Part shown: positions 15,281 to 58,139 of the stretch, in pieces
Numbering within the stretch: position 1 is the first letter of the stretch
How the letters are laid out: each line of letters starts with the position of its first letter
Source: Anaerolineaceae bacterium oral taxon 439
GTDB taxonomy: Bacteria > Chloroflexota > Anaerolineae > Anaerolineales > Anaerolineaceae
Assembly: GCA_001717545.1 (NCBI GenBank)
Contig: CP017039.1
Coordinates: 1,860,001-1,924,000, forward strand
Reading direction: 5' to 3'
DNA: 64,000 nucleotides
Notes under the pieces: generated by a model
Databases searched by the model: none
Seen by the model: the letters and a program-made list of their open reading frames with translations, nothing else
Told to the model about the DNA's origin: nothing
Translations under genes and position numbers: made by a program

Positions 15281-16642
15281 ATGCTAATCTATAACGCAAC
15301 CCTCGTGACCTGGGAGACAGAAAACCGGGTGATTCCCAACTACGCAGTCCGGATCGACGGAAAAACGATCCGCGAAATCGGATCATCCGCCGAGCTGCTC
15401 GCGAAGTATCCGTCCGAAGAAAAAATCGACGCCGAAGAAAAAATCGTCATGCCGGGTCAAATCTGCGCCCATACGCATTTTTACGGCGCATTCTCCCGCG
15501 GCATGGCGATCCCCGGACGACCCGCTAAGGATTTTCCGGAAATTCTCAATAACCTGTGGTATAAGCTTGACCGCGCGCTCGACCCGGAAAGCGTCCGGCT
15601 TTCCGCCGAGTTGCTGACAGTAAACGCCGTCCGGAACGGCTGTACCGCCCTCTTCGATCACCATGCCTCGCCCGACGCAATCGACGGTTCGCTTGACGTT
15701 ATTGAAGACGTTATCGATAAAAGCGGGATCCGCGCCGCTTTATGCTACGAAGTGACCGATCGGAACGGGAAAGACGGCGCGAAAGCCGGAATCCGCGAAA
15801 ACGTCCGCTTCCTGACCAGGCTCAAGAACGGCGGGGACCTCGACGGACGTCTCGGCGGCTTATTCGGAATCCATGCCTGCCTGAGCGTCGACGACGATAC
15901 GCTGGCGGACTGCGCCGCGTCGAACCCCGGAGATTTCGGCTTCCATATCCACGTCGGCGAATCGCAGGAAGACGAATGGGACAGCCTGTATCGAACCGGA
16001 AAGCGCTGTATCCAGCGCCTGTACGATAACGGGATCCTTAACGAAAAAACGATCATCGCCCACGCCGTCCATGTCGACGTCGCTGAAATGGAGATGATCC
16101 GCGAAAAGAAATGCTGGGTGTCGCATCAGCCTCGATCCAACATGAACAACGCGGTCGGCGCGGCGCAGGTTGAATCGATGATGCGGATGGGGATTCCGGT
16201 CTGCCTCGGGAACGACGGGTTTACGTTCGACATGTGGAGTGAATGGAAAACGGCGTACTATCTTCAGAAAGTCGTCCATCGCGATCCGCGCCGCATGGGC
16301 GGATACGACGTCCAGCAGATGGGGATTTATAATAACGCGGCGCTCGCGGGTCAGGCGTTCGGTTTCGGCGAATCGTTCGGAAAGCTCGTCCCCGGCGCGC
16401 CAGCCGACCTGATCTTCGTCGATTTCCATCCGTTCACCGCGTTCAGCGCCGGAAATATCCCCTGGCATATTATTTTCGGCATGAGTGAAAGCATGATTAC
16501 CGATACGATCGTCGCGGGAAAATTCCTGATGAAGAATCGTGAACTGACGACGCTCGACGAGAAAGAAATCGTCGCGCGCGCACTGCGAAAATATCCGCAG
16601 GTCTGGGAGAAATTCAACCGCCTCCATGAGGCGGCCGCTTAG
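15281..16642 (+). CDS. ssnA: SsnA-type putative aminohydrolase (amidohydrolase superfamily)
   Basis: 453 residues, cytoplasmic. Metal ligands of the cytosine-deaminase/chlorohydrolase-like amidohydrolases are visible: CAHTHFYGAFSRGMAIPG (His64 and His66), FHIHVGES, IIAHAVHVD and LGNDGFT. Wording such as VMPGQICAHTHFYGAFSRGM strongly resembles SsnA, an aminohydrolase of the anaerobic purine/urate and selenium-dependent molybdenum hydroxylase gene sets. AAGGAGG lies 8 nt before the ATG. A rho-independent terminator follows, then a molybdenum-cofactor cytidylyltransferase-like gene. This supports a role tied to the molybdenum hydroxylases encoded from 36.7 kb on. The exact substrate is not proven; deamination of a purine breakdown intermediate is the best inference. 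Confidence 0.88.
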   Translation: MLIYNATLVTWETENRVIPNYAVRIDGKTIREIGSSAELLAKYPSEEKIDAEEKIVMPGQICAHTHFYGAFSRGMAIPGRPAKDFPEILNNLWYKLDRALDPESVRLSAELLTVNAVRNGCTALFDHHASPDAIDGSLDVIEDVIDKSGIRAALCYEVTDRNGKDGAKAGIRENVRFLTRLKNGGDLDGRLGGLFGIHACLSVDDDTLADCAASNPGDFGFHIHVGESQEDEWDSLYRTGKRCIQRLYDNGILNEKTIIAHAVHVDVAEMEMIREKKCWVSHQPRSNMNNAVGAAQVESMMRMGIPVCLGNDGFTFDMWSEWKTAYYLQKVVHRDPRRMGGYDVQQMGIYNNAALAGQAFGFGESFGKLVPGAPADLIFVDFHPFTAFSAGNIPWHIIFGMSESMITDTIVAGKFLMKNRELTTLDEKEIVARALRKYPQVWEKFNRLHEAAA

Positions 16643-16661
16643 AAATACGCTTACTTCGACT

Positions 16662-16710
16662 GGACTTGGCGATTTATTACCCCTCCGATATCTCGTCAAG
16701 TCCTTTTTTT
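16662..16710 (+). terminator. Rho-independent terminator between ssnA and the cytidylyltransferase gene
   Basis: 16662-16672 pairs with 16693-16703 (11 bp with one G-T pair, 20-nt loop), followed by seven T (16704-16710). It lies 20 bp past the ssnA stop and ends 15 bp before the next start, so it may attenuate rather than fully block read-through. Confidence 0.75.
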
Positions 16711-16725
16711 ATCAGGCCCTTTCGC

Positions 16726-17382
16726 ATGCAGCTGCCCGATCCAACGTCCCCATCGCTCCCGATCATCGCCGTTCTTCTCGCGGCCGGAAAAGGCGCCCGC
16801 TTTACCGCGCCGGCGCATAAACTGACCATTCCGATCGACGGCGTCCCGATCGTTCGCAGAACCGCGCTGAACTGCCTGACCGCCGATTTCGCCGCCGTCG
16901 TCGCCGTTACCGGCGCGAATTCTGAAACGATCCTGCCGCTCCTTCAGGACCTCCAGCTCCACGTCGTTTTTAATCCAGACTGGGAATCCGGCCAGTTCAG
17001 CTCTCTCCTCGCCGGGCTGAAAGCGGCGCGAACGGTCGGCGCGGGCGATCGCTTCGCCGCCTGCTTCGTCCTGGCCGACCAGCCGTTCGTCCGCGCAGCT
17101 ACATATAACGACCTGATCCGCGCCGCGCGTGAGAACCCGACGAAAATTATCGTCCCGCGCTTTAAAGAAAAACGCGGGAATCCGACCGTTTTCCCGGAAC
17201 GGTTCTTTCCCGAAATGCTGTCCGCGCCGATCGACGACAGCGGCGGGCGCAGGTGGCTCACCGAAGAGAATATCCGCTTCCTGGACGTAGACGACCCCGG
17301 CGTCCTGAAAGATATCGACCGGGTATCGGATTTACCCGGGAACGCGCCTGAATCGCGGCGCGGCGATATAATTAGCGCATGA
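16726..17382 (+). CDS. mocA: MocA-type molybdenum cofactor cytidylyltransferase (NTP transferase)
   Basis: 218 residues from the ATG at 16726; an upstream TTG at 16666 lies inside the terminator stem and is less likely. The nucleotide-binding signature IAVLLAAGKGARF is at the N terminus, followed by HKLTIPIDGVPIVRR, NPDWESGQFSSLLAGL and FVLADQPFV, all typical of MobA-like enzymes of the MocA/YgfJ branch. These attach CMP to molybdopterin, making the MCD cofactor used by xanthine-dehydrogenase-like enzymes. Two such hydroxylases are encoded at 36.7-39 and 53-57 kb. The gene overlaps the next one by ATGA. MobA (GMP transfer) is possible but fits the neighbourhood less well. Confidence 0.8.
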   Translation: MQLPDPTSPSLPIIAVLLAAGKGARFTAPAHKLTIPIDGVPIVRRTALNCLTADFAAVVAVTGANSETILPLLQDLQLHVVFNPDWESGQFSSLLAGLKAARTVGAGDRFAACFVLADQPFVRAATYNDLIRAARENPTKIIVPRFKEKRGNPTVFPERFFPEMLSAPIDDSGGRRWLTEENIRFLDVDDPGVLKDIDRVSDLPGNAPESRRGDIISA

Positions 17383-18233
17383 AATCATTCCTTAAATTAG
17401 AACCTTTCGCGAACGGTTATCAGGCGGTTAATTTATCGCCGAACGCCGCGCTGTCTAACGCCGAGGCTCAGCTTCGCACCCCCGACGGCGCGTATACGAC
17501 GTTTCGAACGTACGATAAATACTTTGTCCTCAACCTCAGGCAGCATTTCGATCGAATCGAGGAAACGGCAGCGCTGACCGGGAAGTCCGTCCGGCTGAAC
17601 CGGGCCGCGCTCCAGTCCGAAATCTGCGCGGCGTTGGAAGAAACGCCGTCGCCCGAGGCGCGGATCCGCCTGTCGCTCGACCTGTCCGTAAACCTTGGGG
17701 AGATCTATCTCTCGGTCGAACCATTCGCGCCGCGCCCGGCGAACCTGTATCAGTCCGGCGTCGAAACCGCGACCGTCCGCATGAGCCGAACCAATCCGCG
17801 CGCAAAACTGAGCCGCTTTTTAGGGCAGGCGGACGCCGTCCGACGAAGCGAAAAGAAAAACGTCGAGGAATACCTGATGATCAGCGACGACCGGGAGATT
17901 CTCGAAGGGCTGAGCTCGAATTTTTACGCGATCCTGCGAGGTGAATTATTTACCGCAGACGAGGGCGTTTTAGCCGGGACGACCCGAAAATTCATCCTCG
18001 ACCTTGCCGCCGCGGGAAACGTCCCTGTCCGGCTCCGGCCTATCTCCGTTTTTGAGCTGAACCGCGTCGACGAAGCCTTCCTTTCGAGTACAAGCCGGTC
18101 GATCCTTCCGGTTCGAAAAATCGATCGCTGGACGATCGGAAACGGCGCCGTTGGTCCCATCACTGCGAAACTCATGAAAGCGTTCGACGCCGAAATCCGG
18201 AAAAATCTCTCCGACCTGCGAATCGCGGAATAA
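17379..18233 (+). CDS. Class IV PLP-dependent aminotransferase / aminodeoxychorismate lyase-like protein
   Basis: 284 residues of fold-type IV. The PLP lysine is probably Lys143 (NPRAKLSRFLG). Also seen are the EILEGLSSNFYAI motif that binds cofactor phosphate and DEAFLSSTSRSILPV near the C terminus. The sequence is divergent from textbook IlvE or PabC, so branched-chain aminotransferase, D-amino acid aminotransferase and aminodeoxychorismate lyase are all possible. It is translationally coupled to the cytidylyltransferase gene (ATGA overlap), which may only reflect operon packing. Confidence 0.82.
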   Translation: MKSFLKLEPFANGYQAVNLSPNAALSNAEAQLRTPDGAYTTFRTYDKYFVLNLRQHFDRIEETAALTGKSVRLNRAALQSEICAALEETPSPEARIRLSLDLSVNLGEIYLSVEPFAPRPANLYQSGVETATVRMSRTNPRAKLSRFLGQADAVRRSEKKNVEEYLMISDDREILEGLSSNFYAILRGELFTADEGVLAGTTRKFILDLAAAGNVPVRLRPISVFELNRVDEAFLSSTSRSILPVRKIDRWTIGNGAVGPITAKLMKAFDAEIRKNLSDLRIAE

Positions 18234-20770: not shown

Positions 20771-23700
20771 ATGAAACGCTTAACTCTTAAACTGTCAGCG
20801 CTGCTCTTAGCGGCATTCCTGGTTCTCAGCCTGACCATCTCCGCCAACGCGGAAAGCGTCGAAGCGCTCGTGACCGGAATTCAGAAATATGGAAATCTGG
20901 AGCTCGACCTGAAAGGGTCAGATTTCCTGAGCACGGGCTTCGCATACGGAGACGTCGTCACCGTGACGCTGAACGGCACGGAGTACGAAATGCCGGTCGT
21001 TTCGAACTACTCCGACGTCGACAACGGTTCAATGCTCTGCCGCGTCGTCATCAAAGAGGAGACAAACGAAGACGCAATGCTGCTCGCGATTAATATGGGT
21101 GATTTAGCGACGACGTCCGGAATCGCGGTCAAGAATAAAATCGAAGCCGACCCGGGTTTTGAATGGATCTATAACGAAGGCGTCGAACAGCCGGTCAAAG
21201 TCACCATTGACATGAAAGAAGCGGGGGCATATCATGAGCAGTACTTGATTCACCAACTGTCCCGCAGCGAAGAACGCGAAAGCTATCCAGATCTGAGCGA
21301 CGAAGAATTCGCGAACTTCCGCATGATTTCGACCACCGGTATCGGTTACGGAACGCTGTACCGCTCCTCGTCACCCGTCAATCCGGAAATTTCCCGGAAC
21401 GCTTACGCGGACGCCGCGATCGAGGCGGCAGGCATTAAAACGGTCGTCAACCTCGCCGACAGCGAGGAAACGATGAAAGCGTATGAAGGGTTCGACGACA
21501 GCTACTACGCAAAGCTGAATATCATCGGCCTGAACCTCGGCGTAGATTTCACTGCCGCTGAATTCAAGGAAGGTCTCGCCGCCGGACTGCGGCATATCGC
21601 TGCGAATGAAGGGCCCTACCTCCTGCATTGCACTGAAGGCAAAGATCGGGCTGGATTCACTTCCGCCATTATCGAAGCTTTCATGGGCGCAACCCTGGAT
21701 GAAATCATCGATGATTACATGACCACCTTCCATAACTATTACGGCGTCGAAAAAGGCAGCGAACAGTATGAAGCCATTGTCAACAGCAACATCATCAAAG
21801 TGCTGCAAACCGCATTCGACGTTGAAGACATATCAGCCGTTGACCTCGCCGCGGAAGCTGAAGAATATCTCAAAACGGAGCTTGGCTTAACCGACCATCC
21901 CGAAGAGAAAAAGCGAAACTGCTGGCTGCCGCGTGAAGAATATCTCAAAATTGAGCCTGGCTTAACCAATGGCGAAATCGCCGCACTGCGCGAGAAACTC
22001 GCCCTTCCGGCTGTCGAGGGTCATGTTGTCAACATTCAGAAATACGGGCATATGGATCTCGACATCAAGGGAAGCGACTTCCTGAAAGCTTATGACTATG
22101 GGGACATCGTCTCGGTTTCAGTTAACGGGAAAACCTACGATATGCCCGTCTGCAACAGTTATACAGATGTCGACGCTGGAGAATACCTCGTTCGCGTCGT
22201 GATCGATCCGGAAAAAGAACGCGACTTCATCTCGCTGTGCATCAACTACGGTCAATTTGCTGCCGACGCTGGAGTCGCGACGGGCGCTAAAGATGCCGAC
22301 GGGAATACCGTCTTCACGTACAATGAGGGCATCGAAGAGCCGGTCGGCGCCGCAATTTCGCTGCGCGAAAAAGGCGGTTATTATACCGAGTGGTTCAGCC
22401 GTCAGGTGACCATGCAGTACGAACGCGATGCATATCCCGATTTATCGGATGCGGAATTCGCGAATTTCCGTGAAATCACGACCGCCGGGATCGCGCCGAA
22501 AACCGTTTACCGTTCGTCTTCGCCGGTCAACGAGGACATCTCGCGAAACCTTTTCGCGGACGCGGCGGCCAGGGAAGCCGGAATTAAATCCGTTATCAAC
22601 CTCGCCGACAGCCAGGAATCAATGGAGGCTTACCCGACGTGGGCGGAAAGCTATTACGGGACACTGAATATTATCCCGCTGAACCTGACCGTCAACGTTT
22701 TGGGCGATGAATTCAAAGCCGGTCTCGCGGAAGGCGTCCGATTCATTGCGGAAAATGAAGGTCCGTTCCTGGTGCACTGCAACGAAGGGAAAGACCGCGC
22801 AGGTTTCTTCTCCGCTGTGATTGAAGCGCTGATGGGCGCGCCCGCGGACGAAATCGTCGCCGATTACATGACAACCTACGCCAATTATTACGGCGTCGAA
22901 CCGGGAACGGAAAAATACGACGCAATCGTCCGCAGCAACATCGCCAAAACGCTGGCGTCCTCGTTCGAAATCGAGGATATCGCCGATCCCGACGTCGATC
23001 TCGCGGCGGAAGCGGAAGAATACTGCCTTGAAATAGGGCTGACCGCGGACGAAATCGCGGCAATCAAAGAAAAACTCCAGGCGCCCAGCCTTTCCACCGT
23101 CGCCCCGTCCGTAGAAGAGATCGATAAATACGGAGACGTCCGTTTGTCCGTGACTTCCGGAGAGATCAGGGACCTCGGGATCGAATATGCGGATTATGTG
23201 CATGTCGCGTTTTCAGGTCAGGTCTTAAAGCTGCCGGTCGTCCCCGATTACCGTTACGTTGAAGCGAAGGGAAGCGCTTTGGTCGTCTGGGAAGACGACG
23301 CAAAGCCCGTCGAGCTGGAGATTTTCAACGGCAGCTTCGCGGCTACATACGGGTTAGCCGACAAAACGACCAACGAGGATAAAACCTATTTCTGGAACGC
23401 CCGGGAAGGCGTTGAATTCCCGATAAAAGTGACCGTGTCGCAGGGCGAAAAAGGGGGGTACGCCGGTCAATATCTCTTATACGACCTGAATCGGACGAAC
23501 GAGCGCGGCGATTACGCGGCGCTTACCGACAAGGAATTCGCGAATTTCCGCGCCGTGACGACAACCGGAATGGGAGAAAACGTCTTATACCGCGCCTCCT
23601 CGCCCGTCAATCCTAAAATCGGACGCAGCGCATTCGCCGACGCAGCTGTAAAAGAGGCGGAAATTAAGACGATCATGAACCAGGCCGACAACGAGGAATC

Positions 23701-24160
23701 AGCGAACGCGTATGAAGGTTTCGCCGATACGTATACGGCTTCGCAGAACGTAATCTACCTTGCGCTCGGCGCAGACATGGCTTCAGATCAGAACCGGACG
23801 GGATTCGCCGAAGGACTTCGCTTCTTTATCGCAAACGACGGCCCATACCTGATTCATTGCAACGAAGGTCAGGACCGAACCGGATTCAGCGTCGCGATTC
23901 TGGAATGCCTGATGGGCGCGTCCGAGGAAGAAGTCGTTGCCGATTATATGAAGACTTTTGAGAATTTTTACGGCGTGGAAAAAGGTTCAGAGCAATACAA
24001 CGCCATTTCAAACAACATCGTCAAAAACCTCAAATCCGCCTTCGCGGTCAACAGTCTCGACGGGCTGGACCTCGCGGATGCCGCTGAGACCTACCTGCGG
24101 GGAATCGGGCTGAGCGACGACGAAATTACCGCGTTGAAAGAGAAGCTAAGCGCGAAATAA
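20771..24160 (+). CDS. Secreted protein with three tandem tyrosine-phosphatase-like units, each with a beta domain
   Basis: 1129 residues with a clear signal peptide (LSALLLAAFLVLSLTISANA, about 1-27). The mature protein is three repeats of about 360-380 residues. Each begins with a beta-rich domain (IQKYGNLELDLKGSDF, then YGD.V.V, Y.DVD.G, IN.G) that resembles the C-terminal barrel of SAM hydroxide adenosyltransferases (DUF62). It is followed by a Y_phosphatase3-like domain (EFANFR, LYRSSSPVN, NLADS). The P-loop Cys and Arg are kept in all three: HCTEGKDRAG (Cys287, Arg293), HCNEGKDRAG (Cys670, Arg676), HCNEGQDRTG (Cys1030, Arg1036). All units may therefore be active on phospho-Tyr, phosphoinositide or similar phospho-esters outside the cell. 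There is no membrane or wall anchor. Repeat 1 carries an extra 25-residue duplication. GGAG precedes the ATG. The beta-domain assignment is inference. Confidence 0.8.
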   Translation: MKRLTLKLSALLLAAFLVLSLTISANAESVEALVTGIQKYGNLELDLKGSDFLSTGFAYGDVVTVTLNGTEYEMPVVSNYSDVDNGSMLCRVVIKEETNEDAMLLAINMGDLATTSGIAVKNKIEADPGFEWIYNEGVEQPVKVTIDMKEAGAYHEQYLIHQLSRSEERESYPDLSDEEFANFRMISTTGIGYGTLYRSSSPVNPEISRNAYADAAIEAAGIKTVVNLADSEETMKAYEGFDDSYYAKLNIIGLNLGVDFTAAEFKEGLAAGLRHIAANEGPYLLHCTEGKDRAGFTSAIIEAFMGATLDEIIDDYMTTFHNYYGVEKGSEQYEAIVNSNIIKVLQTAFDVEDISAVDLAAEAEEYLKTELGLTDHPEEKKRNCWLPREEYLKIEPGLTNGEIAALREKLALPAVEGHVVNIQKYGHMDLDIKGSDFLKAYDYGDIVSVSVNGKTYDMPVCNSYTDVDAGEYLVRVVIDPEKERDFISLCINYGQFAADAGVATGAKDADGNTVFTYNEGIEEPVGAAISLREKGGYYTEWFSRQVTMQYERDAYPDLSDAEFANFREITTAGIAPKTVYRSSSPVNEDISRNLFADAAAREAGIKSVINLADSQESMEAYPTWAESYYGTLNIIPLNLTVNVLGDEFKAGLAEGVRFIAENEGPFLVHCNEGKDRAGFFSAVIEALMGAPADEIVADYMTTYANYYGVEPGTEKYDAIVRSNIAKTLASSFEIEDIADPDVDLAAEAEEYCLEIGLTADEIAAIKEKLQAPSLSTVAPSVEEIDKYGDVRLSVTSGEIRDLGIEYADYVHVAFSGQVLKLPVVPDYRYVEAKGSALVVWEDDAKPVELEIFNGSFAATYGLADKTTNEDKTYFWNAREGVEFPIKVTVSQGEKGGYAGQYLLYDLNRTNERGDYAALTDKEFANFRAVTTTGMGENVLYRASSPVNPKIGRSAFADAAVKEAEIKTIMNQADNEESANAYEGFADTYTASQNVIYLALGADMASDQNRTGFAEGLRFFIANDGPYLIHCNEGQDRTGFSVAILECLMGASEEEVVADYMKTFENFYGVEKGSEQYNAISNNIVKNLKSAFAVNSLDGLDLADAAETYLRGIGLSDDEITALKEKLSAK
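21860..21967 (+). repeat. In-frame 75-bp tandem duplication inside the first phosphatase unit
   Basis: 21860-21892 and 21935-21967 are 33-bp direct repeats with 3 mismatches, spaced 75 bp (25 codons). They encode EEYLKTELGLT and EEYLKIEPGLT. Units 2 and 3 lack the extra copy, so it arose in unit 1 after the triplication. Confidence 0.8.
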
Positions 24161-24183
24161 ATCGCCGGGAATCCCGACGTCAG

Positions 24184-24222
24184 AGAGGCTCGATGGAGTA
24201 CGTACCTTCGGGCCTCTTTTTT
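24184..24222 (+). terminator. Rho-independent terminator after the triple phosphatase gene
   Basis: AGAGGCTCGA (24184-24193) pairs with TCGGGCCTCT (24208-24217; one wobble), followed by TTTTTT. It lies 23 bp past the stop. Confidence 0.88.
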
Positions 24223-29026: not shown

Positions 29027-30157
29027 ATGAATGAACGACACCGCAAAATCAACCGCCGTATGACCCTGCGTTTCGCCTGGTTCGCCGCCGCCTGCCTGAT
29101 CTTTTCTTTAGCCATGGCTTCCGCCGGCGCGGCGGAAACGAACGAGCCGTCGCCGTCTCTATCCGCCGCCGAACTTGTCAGGGAGTTGCGCCTTGGATGG
29201 AACCTGGGAAACAGCCTGGACGCGATGCACAAAGGGCGCGGCTTCAAGCTCGAAAGCGAAACGTTCTGGGAGAATCCGAAGCCGACGAAAGAGCTGATCA
29301 ACGCGGTCAGCGCCGCGGGCTTCAGCACGATCCGAATCCCGATCAGCTATTACAATCATCTCCGCGAAGACGGAACGATCGACCCGGCATGGCTGAACCG
29401 GATCGAGGAAGTCGTCGGCTGGGCGCTGGAAAACGACCTCTACGCAATAATCAACATCCATCACGACACCGGCATGAATCCCAGCCTCAACTGGATTTTC
29501 GCCGACACGGACGAATTCGAGAAGAGCCGCGTGAACTTCGTCTCAATCTGGGAACAGGTCGCCGCGCGGTTCATCGAGACCGATCAGCGCCTGATTTTCC
29601 AAAGCTCCGGCGAATGGATGAACCGGGAGCGGAGCTGGGATAACCGGGAGGATCAGCGAATCGTCCATGCCCTGAACCAGTCGTTTATCGACACGGTTCG
29701 GAACTCCGGCGGAAAGAACGCGGACCGGTTCCTGATGCTGTCGCCGTTCGCGGCCTCCGCCGAAGAAGAGATCATCCGCGAAATGCTCCACTGTCCGTTC
29801 TCAGACCCCGCCGGCGACAAACTGCTCCTGAGCGTACATAGTTACACGCTCGACCCGGAGCTCATTTCGTCAGGCGCGCAATCGCTCGCAAACATCGCAA
29901 CAGAATTCGGACTCCCGATCGTCGTTGACGAAATCGGCTTTCCAAAATCCATGCCGCGGCAACAAAATCTGGACGCGGCCAAAGCCTATTTTTCCGCGGC
30001 GGCGGAAGCGGGGATCGTCTGCTTCTTCTGGGACGATGGCTACGAATACGTGATTCTCGACCGCATGACCGGAGAAGTCGCAGATCGCGAGCTCCTGGAG
30101 CTCGTATTTTCCATCATCGGTTCGCCTGACGAAAGCGATCGCTCGCCGGTCCGATGA
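29027..30157 (+). CDS. Secreted GH5-family glycoside hydrolase with altered acid/base motif
   Basis: 376 residues. A basic n-region and hydrophobic core (FAWFAAACLIFSLAMASAGA) form a signal peptide; an internal ATG at 29060 is another possible start. GH5 (endoglucanase-like) features are LGWNLGNSLDAM, STIRIPISYYNHL, AIINIHHDTG (conserved His pair region) and the nucleophile segment LPIVVDEIGFPKS. The acid/base Glu normally sits in an Asn-Glu-Pro motif; here the matching place reads LIFQSSGEWMNRE, keeping Glu but replacing Asn with Gly and Pro with Trp. Length is right for a single catalytic domain without a carbohydrate-binding module. It probably acts on beta-glucans outside the cell, if still active. 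Confidence 0.88.
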   Translation: MNERHRKINRRMTLRFAWFAAACLIFSLAMASAGAAETNEPSPSLSAAELVRELRLGWNLGNSLDAMHKGRGFKLESETFWENPKPTKELINAVSAAGFSTIRIPISYYNHLREDGTIDPAWLNRIEEVVGWALENDLYAIINIHHDTGMNPSLNWIFADTDEFEKSRVNFVSIWEQVAARFIETDQRLIFQSSGEWMNRERSWDNREDQRIVHALNQSFIDTVRNSGGKNADRFLMLSPFAASAEEEIIREMLHCPFSDPAGDKLLLSVHSYTLDPELISSGAQSLANIATEFGLPIVVDEIGFPKSMPRQQNLDAAKAYFSAAAEAGIVCFFWDDGYEYVILDRMTGEVADRELLELVFSIIGSPDESDRSPVR

Positions 30158-56921: not shown

Positions 56922-58139
56922 CTACAATTTTTTACACTGCGCTGCCAGGAAAAGAGGAAAAGCGGAATAGAACTGAATCGCCTTAAAAAGTTCGGGCAGA
57001 GGTACTTGATCATCTGTCGTATGGCAAAGCGGTTCGTCGCCAGCGCCAAAACCAATCGCTGGAATTCCCATCCGACCGCAAAGATGCGTCCCATTCGTGC
57101 AGAAATCCCATTTCGTAACAACCGGTTCTTTCTCAAACAGAGCTCGATAAGTCTGGACCCCGGCCTGTACGATTGGCGCGTCCTCCTCCATTACCCAAGA
57201 CGGGAAATAATCCGTACAATCAATTTTATAACCAGTATAAGTCTTGACCACTTCGTTATCGATCTCAACTTTAATTCCCTCAATCCCTGCGCAGAGAGAA
57301 CTGACCTCGTCAATCAATTCCTGCTCGGTCTCGCCGCAGGAAATACGCCGGTCGCAGGTGATAACCGCTTCGCCTGGAATCGTATTGAGAGAAGGAGCTT
57401 TGCATTCAACATTCGTAACTTCTATAGTACCTTTTCCTAAAAAATCGTCATCAACAAAATCATCATGCTCATCAATTCTTTTGATAATCGGAAGTGCTTT
57501 CACCAGCGCGTTGTCACCGCGCCAGGCCGCCGACGCATGGGCGCATTTACCCGGAACAGTGATGCGGATCAAGGCCCTGCCTTTATGCCCGCGCATAATC
57601 CTTCCGTTGCTTGCTTCCGCGACCAGGATATAGTCCGGTTTAATATCCGGATTCTCTTTCATCATCGCTGATACGCAGGAACCTTCCACGTCCTCTTCTG
57701 AAATAGAGCCGGATATCCAGAGAGTAAAGTCTTTATCCAGTGCTAACTTTTTTAGGATTCGCCCCGCGTACGTAATTCCAATCAGGCAACTCTTATCGTC
57801 TACGGCGCCCCTCCCATATAAAACCTGATTCTCAATCGTCGCTGAAAGCGGTGGGAACCGCCAGTCTCCCGGATTGCCCAAGTCAACGGTGTCAATATGC
57901 GCGTCATACAATACAACCGTTTTACCAGACCCGATTCTCCCGAGAACATTTCCGACGGCGTCCACTCTTACCTCGTCAAAATCAAAGTTGCGCATTTTCG
58001 CAGATAGAAACTTGACCGCTTCGTCCTCGTTATAGGTAACGCTTTCAATTCGAACCAACTCTTGAAGATCGCGAACAATCTCGTCTTCCCAGTCTTTTAC
58101 CTGTTTAACGATCGAAAGTAAGTTTGCAGACATGTTCAT
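56922..58139 (-). CDS. ygeY: YgeY-type M20 metallohydrolase
   Basis: 405 residues. M20 family metal ligands are seen in VVLYDAHIDTVDLGNPGDW, VLYGRGAVDDKSCLIG, SISEEDVEGSC and EPLCHTTDDQVPLPEL. The DAHIDTVDLG wording and GRIMRGHKGRALIRITVPGK are typical of the YgeY selenium-metabolism-linked hydrolases, related to acetylornithine/succinyl-diaminopimelate deacylases. In purine degradation clusters it is thought to hydrolyse a ring-opened carbamoyl or amide intermediate. GGTGG precedes the ATG. It is followed closely by the molybdenum hydroxylase genes. Confidence 0.93.
   Translation of the reverse strand: MNMSANLLSIVKQVKDWEDEIVRDLQELVRIESVTYNEDEAVKFLSAKMRNFDFDEVRVDAVGNVLGRIGSGKTVVLYDAHIDTVDLGNPGDWRFPPLSATIENQVLYGRGAVDDKSCLIGITYAGRILKKLALDKDFTLWISGSISEEDVEGSCVSAMMKENPDIKPDYILVAEASNGRIMRGHKGRALIRITVPGKCAHASAAWRGDNALVKALPIIKRIDEHDDFVDDDFLGKGTIEVTNVECKAPSLNTIPGEAVITCDRRISCGETEQELIDEVSSLCAGIEGIKVEIDNEVVKTYTGYKIDCTDYFPSWVMEEDAPIVQAGVQTYRALFEKEPVVTKWDFCTNGTHLCGRMGIPAIGFGAGDEPLCHTTDDQVPLPELFKAIQFYSAFPLFLAAQCKKL

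Follow-up and report, generated by a model that had tools for sequence, protein, structure and literature searches.

Cysteine phosphatases of gut bacteria include the protein tyrosine phosphatase (PTP)-like phytases of the Selenomonas PhyAsr type. PhyAsr is mentioned in the same text (PMC6409689) as Pho16B, one of the atypical lipid phosphatases (ALPs; e.g., PtpB/MptpB, Listeria Lmo1800; Y_phosphatase3, PF13350). ALPs, described as a phosphatase domain alone, use the Asp of their P-loop as catalytic acid and its Lys to bind the substrate (PMC3091653). The DUF62 family gathers the S-adenosylmethionine (SAM) hydroxide adenosyltransferases, the fluorinase and SalL; it relies on a His-Arg-Asp triad, and one of its proteins was crystallised with adenosine (PMC10491745). 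Here we describe a gene of Anaerolineaceae bacterium oral taxon 439 that joins the two kinds of domain, a DUF62 C-terminal-type barrel (SAM_HAT_C, PF20257) and a Y_phosphatase3 domain, three times over in a single protein. The gene lies in a stretch of 64,000 nucleotides, hereafter the window (GCA_001717545.1, contig CP017039.1, positions 1,860,001 to 1,924,000). Tentatively, we favour the view that this three-unit protein is a cysteine phosphatase acting outside the cell in the salvage of nucleotides and phosphate, with units that would differ from one another.

Domains, predicted folds and P-loops

The open reading frame (ORF) begins with ATG and encodes 1129 amino acids (aa) without internal stop, arranged as three tandem units in which a SAM_HAT_C-type barrel precedes a Y_phosphatase3 domain (Table 1). 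A Pfam search of the whole protein, with matches up to E 1 taken (11 in all), recovered Y_phosphatase3 (E 1.8e-53) and SAM_HAT_C (E 1.7e-17), each over three stretches at a loose limit. Searched separately, every unit matches Y_phosphatase3, while SAM_HAT_C exceeds its cut-off (25.5 bits) in unit 1, falls just below it in unit 2 and gives no match at E 0.001 in unit 3. Units 2 and 3 align with unit 1 at 57% and 48% identity respectively, well above chance.

Units 1 and 3 were modelled with AlphaFold2, at a predicted local distance difference test (pLDDT) of 90.3 and 91.1, and the models were compared with the PDB, Foldseek included. Residues 149-382 of the unit 1 model match PtpB of M. tuberculosis (1ywf). 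For the barrel, residues 1-120, the T. maritima protein 2zbv_C is matched above the fluorinase, SalL and the SAM hydroxide adenosyltransferase 2wr8 (Z 10.9, 2.0 Å, 88 residues aligned). In unit 3, the barrel missed by SAM_HAT_C alone is recovered by structure (2zbu_A), next to a phosphatase domain again matching 1ywf. A C. difficile PTP is also among the top fold matches (Z 14.6 for unit 1, 14.2 for unit 3). Overall, the barrels match DUF62 structures at Z 10.7-14.8, and the FGN-, FxD- and N-G-type loop positions align. The N-terminal part of the unit is thus related to the DUF62 C-terminal barrel in both models, a relationship on which the first-pass annotation had staked its proposal of three units pairing SAM-hydroxide-adenosyltransferase-C-like and Y_phosphatase3-like domains; Pfam and the models of units 1 and 3 bear this proposal out. 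Its description of the protein as secreted likewise agrees with a signal peptide that looks typical by eye.

Unlike DUF62 proteins, the three-unit protein joins its barrels to phosphatase domains. The DUF62 N-terminal catalytic domain is absent among its 11 Pfam matches, hence no His-Arg-Asp triad is expected here; no phytase family model is found among them either.

The P-loop Cys, Asp and Arg are present in all three units, the intact CX5R loops lying at Cys287, Cys670 and Cys1030 exactly as first annotated. Units 1 (HCTEGKDRAG) and 2 (HCNEGKDRAG) fit the ALP family P-loop HCXXGKDR[TA]G (Beresford 2010), whereas unit 3 (HCNEGQDRTG) has Gln in place of the signature Lys. The phosphatase fold is that of the ALPs, as judged by Pfam in all units and by 1ywf in units 1 and 3, and the P-loops are of ALP type rather than of the type of the PTP-like phytases. 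Yet the three-unit protein departs from ALPs by a Glu at P-loop position 3 and, more conspicuously, by a DUF62-type barrel before each phosphatase, three per protein.

The first-pass annotation had held that the three sites do not simply reflect decay, and we concur: pLDDT reaches 90-91 in the modelled units, and the ratio of nonsynonymous to synonymous substitution rates (dN/dS) is 0.05-0.22 in seven of the seven near pairs of relatives tried. No relative close enough to the three-unit protein itself to test selection directly was found. Decay is also an unlikely account of the Lys-to-Gln change in unit 3, since Gln is common to a whole clade (five of five rows, in two trees) and the pLDDT of this unit is 91. 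The Q-type unit of a pair of related two-unit genes (G005/G006) has a dN/dS of 0.070, based on few changes. The end of unit 1 shows a direct repeat of 33 bases with few changes (21860-21892 and 21935-21967, 75 bases apart); the final stretch of this unit was apparently duplicated, making unit 1 longer than its kin.

Pocket residues, fusion partners and candidate substrates

Relatives were collected by scanning genome_contigs with a 12-row unit alignment, which matched at least 594 stretches, at least 560 of them encoding relatives; the best 80 loci were kept. Because the scan pattern demanded HCxEG[KQ]DR, P-loop retention among the kept loci is partly a selection effect, and letters other than Glu do occur at the Glu position in relatives from a Clostridia family. 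A 12-barrel profile aligns to 2zbu and to the fluorinase over the KYGN/FGN, SNYSDV/FADA and AINMG/ARNA loops, and to 2wr8 over the last two only. We take fluorinase F254 and R277 to be pocket positions. Fluorinase N215, S269, R270 and A279 are given as SAM/fluoride-binding in a figure legend (PMC3999930).

Counted over 90 of 97 units (near-copies and one cut unit excluded), an aromatic residue (Y or F) occupies the F254 site in 90/90, and N occupies the N278 site in 79 and the N215 site in 74; the methionine-side S269 and R270 sites are variable. Within the three-unit protein, units 1, 2 and 3 respectively carry N/H/D at the N215 site, Y/Y/Y at the F254 site and N/N/F at the N278 site; the S269 (N/E/D) and R270 (E/R/D) positions, which lie in a poorly aligned loop, are not retained from DUF62. 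Judged from these alignments, the barrels would keep the adenosine-side pocket positions and not the methionine-side ones.

At the N215 site, single units have N in 71/81 cases and H in 2/81. Two-unit proteins show the order N/H (L035, L056, G493) or D/H (G005, G519), and the near-copies L072 and G006 repeat these patterns. When barrel site and P-loop are read together, the units of the three-unit protein form the pairs N/K, H/K and D/Q, so that unit 3, with D at the N215 site and Gln for Lys, differs at both. All five Q units have D at the barrel site; as they form one clade, this pairing counts as one observation, not five. The three pairs suggest that the units may not be redundant and may act on different substrates or phosphate positions.

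Domain architecture was scanned in 78 of the 82 relatives (L057, L067, L072 and L084 were left out as near-copies or kin). Y_phosphatase3 was found in 78/78 and SAM_HAT_C in 60/78 (E 1e-5), and the fusion partners comprise 5_nucleotid_C (14), Metallophos (12), LysM (8), SLH (6), nucleoside hydrolase (1) and CotH (1). The nucleoside hydrolase fusion is encoded at L088:7800-10022; the CotH kinase fusion, at L050:7836-12092, also bears Big_2 and fn3 domains.

The CotH fusion, together with the PTP-like fold and the presence of TpbA among the fold matches, could indicate an extracellular phosphoprotein phosphatase that reverses surface-protein phosphorylation. We consider this very improbable, as CotH occurs in 1/78 relatives against 14/78 with nucleotidase fusions, although L067, of similar length to L050 and its kin in the tree, lies outside that scan. 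An improbable role, if somewhat less so, is the dephosphorylation of phosphoinositides in host or protist membranes, which has been proposed for MptpB-type ALPs: PtpB is the closest solved structure, and units 1 and 2 have the HCXXGKDRAG signature of ALPs, other members of which are phosphoinositide-active (PMC3091653). However, the Lys important for PI(3,5)P2 is missing in unit 3, no lipid-binding domain is found among the Pfam matches of the three-unit protein, and the surface-anchor domains of relatives (LysM 8/78, SLH 6/78) speak for action at the cell's own surface.

Nucleotides, omitted from the candidate substrates of the first-pass annotation (phytate-like, phosphoinositide or phosphoprotein), are instead the class that fusion partners and pocket residues appear to favour. 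Genes for Bmp-type ATP-binding cassette (ABC) importers lie directly upstream of L030 and L034 and divergently from L094, and Bmp matches in the genome of the three-unit protein number 14, spread over 13 open frames. The ALP Pho16B, which bears a signal peptide, hydrolysed 10/10 substrates tested, ATP and ADP included (PMC6409689). From this precedent, the folds, the adenosine-side conservation, the nucleotidase fusions, the Bmp genes, the purine-type genes of the window (see below) and the unit differences, we infer the activity, the nucleotide substrate, the use of the pocket and the division of labour between units.

Under such a nucleotide salvage role, the protein would be exported via Sec as a multi-headed phosphomonoesterase. 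Within every unit, the phosphate would be attacked by the P-loop Cys and held by the Arg, and the Asp would be the likely general acid, as in ALPs. The barrel, a SAM hydroxide adenosyltransferase C-domain without its catalytic N-domain, may hold the nucleoside part of the substrate or tune substrate choice. Extracellular nucleotides would thereby yield nucleoside and phosphate, the former entering the cell through Bmp-type ABC importers to be used by its purine-degradation genes. This proposed role is that of UshA-type 5'-nucleotidases (Metallophos plus 5_nucleotid_C), whose C-terminal domain is the one fused to the module in the 14 relatives above. UshA-type enzymes are nonetheless metal-dependent and of calcineurin-like fold, as opposed to the cysteine P-loop found here, and neither Metallophos nor 5_nucleotid_C is detected by Pfam in the three-unit protein.

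Several points weigh against nucleotide salvage. The N215 site is N in unit 1 alone, and in unit 3 the N278 site, too, departs from N, being Phe. The DUF62 site sits between protomers (PMC12120602), and the partner N-domain is missing here according to Pfam. The assayed ALPs are phosphoinositide-active or promiscuous (PMC3091653, PMC6409689). The three-unit protein has no nucleotidase fusion, 5_nucleotid_C is missing in 64/78 relatives, and the same genome encodes one separate UshA-type protein. No neighbour family recurs in more than three members among 130 immediate neighbours (cut to 330 aa), drawn from 233 neighbours within two genes; the top cluster was discarded, being taken as an antisense ORF of the unit gene itself. 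Finally, the purine-type genes come no nearer than 12 kb on the downstream side, where rpoC and gyrA intervene, and 4 kb on the upstream side.

The breadth of Pho16B, for which inositol hexakisphosphate (InsP6) reached about 30% of the activity on naphthyl phosphate among the ten substrates cleaved (PMC6409689), also suits a promiscuous secreted ALP that scavenges phosphate from the esters of plant-rich gut contents, inositol phosphates among them, with the barrel as a mere spacer. Ruminant samples are the source of many of the best 80 loci, and the inositol pyrophosphate (PP-InsP) phosphatases Siw14 and AtPFA-DSP1 rank high among fold matches. This role is, in our opinion, unlikely without being far-fetched: a P-loop with Glu in third place and, apart from the Arg, a single basic residue (none in unit 3) is unlike that of enzymes acting on poly-phosphorylated inositides (compare PMC3091653), no phytase fusion figures among the 25 families listed for the 78 relatives, and the pocket positions are conserved beyond the needs of a spacer.

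Distribution and history of the paired module

The best 80 loci derive mainly from gut or ruminant Clostridia and other Bacillota, in addition to Spirochaetales and one Chloroflexi record (L083), whose protein start is identical to that of L007; the source genus, within the Chloroflexota, is accordingly taken to include members from the rumen. They contain 82 unit-bearing ORFs, 79 with one unit (L039 with the phosphatase part only) and three with two. In a sample of one Clostridia family, 84/300 genomes match at E 1e-40 and three two-unit ORFs occur (G431, which is L035 again, G493 and G519); these counts are lower bounds, at most six candidates per genome having been scored. In the source genus, 6/14 genomes have strong matches and 8/14 none, with one strong unit in G004, G012 and G013, two in G005 and G006, and three in the genome of the three-unit protein. 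The latter is the single match (1/396, E 1e-40) in a class-wide sample, and strong matches among the sampled Chloroflexota genomes are confined to the source genus. Three units in one ORF were found nowhere else in the contig, Clostridia family, genus and class samples. Its three active sites, called unusual in the first-pass annotation, set the protein apart in these samples by their union in one ORF; the paired module itself is common (at least 560 relatives). A description of the barrel and phosphatase pair was not found in the titles and abstract openings of open-licence PMC literature. Two features deserve attention in the large group to which the pair belongs: a protein uniting three units of three types, and a DUF62 C-domain that is reused.

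Two other arrangements were observed. L143 (G645:C51:46500-53500) holds four adjacent single-unit genes with HCT[VLM]GKDR P-loops, i.e., a tandem gene array and not one multi-unit protein. Some genomes of the genus encode a second, divergent single-unit protein (L017, L018, L020, L021), about 31-33% identical to the three-unit protein.

The history of the units was traced in a tree of 97 units. Simple triplication as the origin of the three units is rejected: tested on 92/97 rows, five long-branch rows being left out, a one-clade tree falls behind by 124 log units (p 6.4e-5). Sister to each other, units 1 and 2 stand among Clostridia single units, with a Shimodaira-Hasegawa-like approximate likelihood ratio test (SH-aLRT) support of 87, and 94 in a second tree, neither starred. 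Unit 1 is 64-66% identical to two Clostridia single units versus 53% to unit 2 (blastp; 57% in the alignment). Unit 3 groups in a clade of five with the GQDR P-loop (starred support of 99), together with Treponema L087, Pseudoflavonifractor L089 and the first units of G005 and G006. The H label at the N215 site changed at least four times on the tree, gains and losses not being separated; membership of unit 2 in the main second-unit H clade was rejected at p 0.005, a generous value since the group was defined with the first tree already in view.

Over 704 residues, the two-unit proteins of G005 and of the Clostridia family genome G519 share 71% identity, and both have the D/Q-then-H/K order. 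This likeness, taken with the single match in the class sample, points to a probable horizontal transfer of the module into the genus. The two-unit genes L005 (of G005) and L006 (of G006) differ little in unit 1, with a synonymous distance (dS) of 0.035, and much in unit 2 (0.48), as if unit 2 had been exchanged.

It is conceivable, albeit doubtful, that these relatives form a large class of extracellular cysteine-dependent gut nucleotidases, in which the C-barrel of SAM hydrolases and fluorinase would be reused for nucleoside recognition. The three-unit protein would be the most elaborate form seen, combining three pocket/P-loop types (N/K, H/K, D/Q) from two lineages for different nucleotides or phosphate positions, with a second-unit His reached more than once.

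Genomic surroundings and implications

The three-unit gene is flanked by an RNase_H_2 gene and by rpoC, assigned from sequence, which is immediately followed by a GH5 cellulase gene (29027-30157). A hairpin downstream of the gene likely represents its own terminator (Table 1), and a promoter scan gave 6 sites against 3.2 expected, an uninformative excess. The G+C content at third codon positions (GC3) is 0.65, compared to 0.74 for rpoC and 0.76 for gyrA.

Table 1. Coordinates in the window of the three-unit gene, its parts and two purine-type genes.
Feature	Position	Strand	Basis
SsnA-type aminohydrolase	15281-16642		above NCBIfam cut-off
Three-unit protein gene	20771..24160	+	ORF, Pfam
Signal peptide, aa 1-27, likely cleavage after ANA	20771..20851	+	judged by eye from sequence
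Unit 1 barrel, DUF62 C-domain type, aa 28-148	20852..21214	+	2zbv_C Z 14.8, 1.7 Å, 95 aligned; SAM_HAT_C 27.0 bits
Asn42, fluorinase-N215 site, unit 1 (KYGN)	20894..20896	+	alignment
Unit 1 phosphatase domain, aa 176-409	21296..21997	+	1ywf Z 15.5, 3.8 Å, 185 aligned; Y_phosphatase3 E 3.3e-17
P-loop 1, HCTEGKDR, Cys287/Arg293	21626..21649	+	sequence
Unit 2 barrel, aa 410-536, edges approximate	21998..22378	+	SAM_HAT_C 25.2 bits (under cut-off); alignment to unit 1
His427, N215 site, unit 2 (KYGH)	22049..22051	+	alignment
Unit 2 phosphatase domain, aa 552-770, edges approximate	22424..23080	+	Y_phosphatase3 E 1.6e-17
P-loop 2, HCNEGKDR, Cys670/Arg676	22775..22798	+	sequence
Unit 3 barrel, aa 773-891	23087..23443	+	2zbu_A Z 14.3, 2.0 Å, 98 aligned; no SAM_HAT_C match alone
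Asp789, N215 site, unit 3 (KYGD)	23135..23137	+	alignment
Unit 3 phosphatase domain, aa 919-1127	23525..24151	+	1ywf Z 15.1, 3.8 Å, 187 aligned; Y_phosphatase3 E 3.3e-17
P-loop 3, HCNEGQDR, Cys1030/Arg1036, Gln for Lys	23855..23878	+	sequence
Terminator-like hairpin then T run	24182..24219	+	-21.8 kcal/mol, z -3.4, 1/200 shuffles as good; absent from the list of a separate pattern scan
YgeY-type hydrolase	56922-58139		above cut-off

Upstream (15281-18233), the window contains SsnA, MobA-like and aminotransferase genes, and downstream (36699-63713) it contains XdhA-like, FAD subunit, PucR, amidohydrolase, PreA-like, YgeY and Bmp ABC importer genes. The two XdhA-like subunits remain under their equivalog cut-offs, as do the hydantoinase-like and PreA-like genes under theirs; the FAD subunit is of the molybdopterin-dehydrogenase type, and PucR is a regulator. 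As the best NCBIfam match of the Bmp protein, itself under cut-off, is a putative B6 transporter, its ligand is uncertain. This gene set presumably resembles an anaerobic purine-degradation set.

If nucleotide salvage is the true role, a module carried by 84/300 genomes in one Clostridia family would gain a substrate class, the DUF62 C-domain would gain a role outside SAM chemistry, and nucleotide and phosphate turnover in the gut would gain a metal-independent route. The three-unit protein would moreover allow the effect of N/H/D and K/Q on specificity to be compared within one polypeptide.

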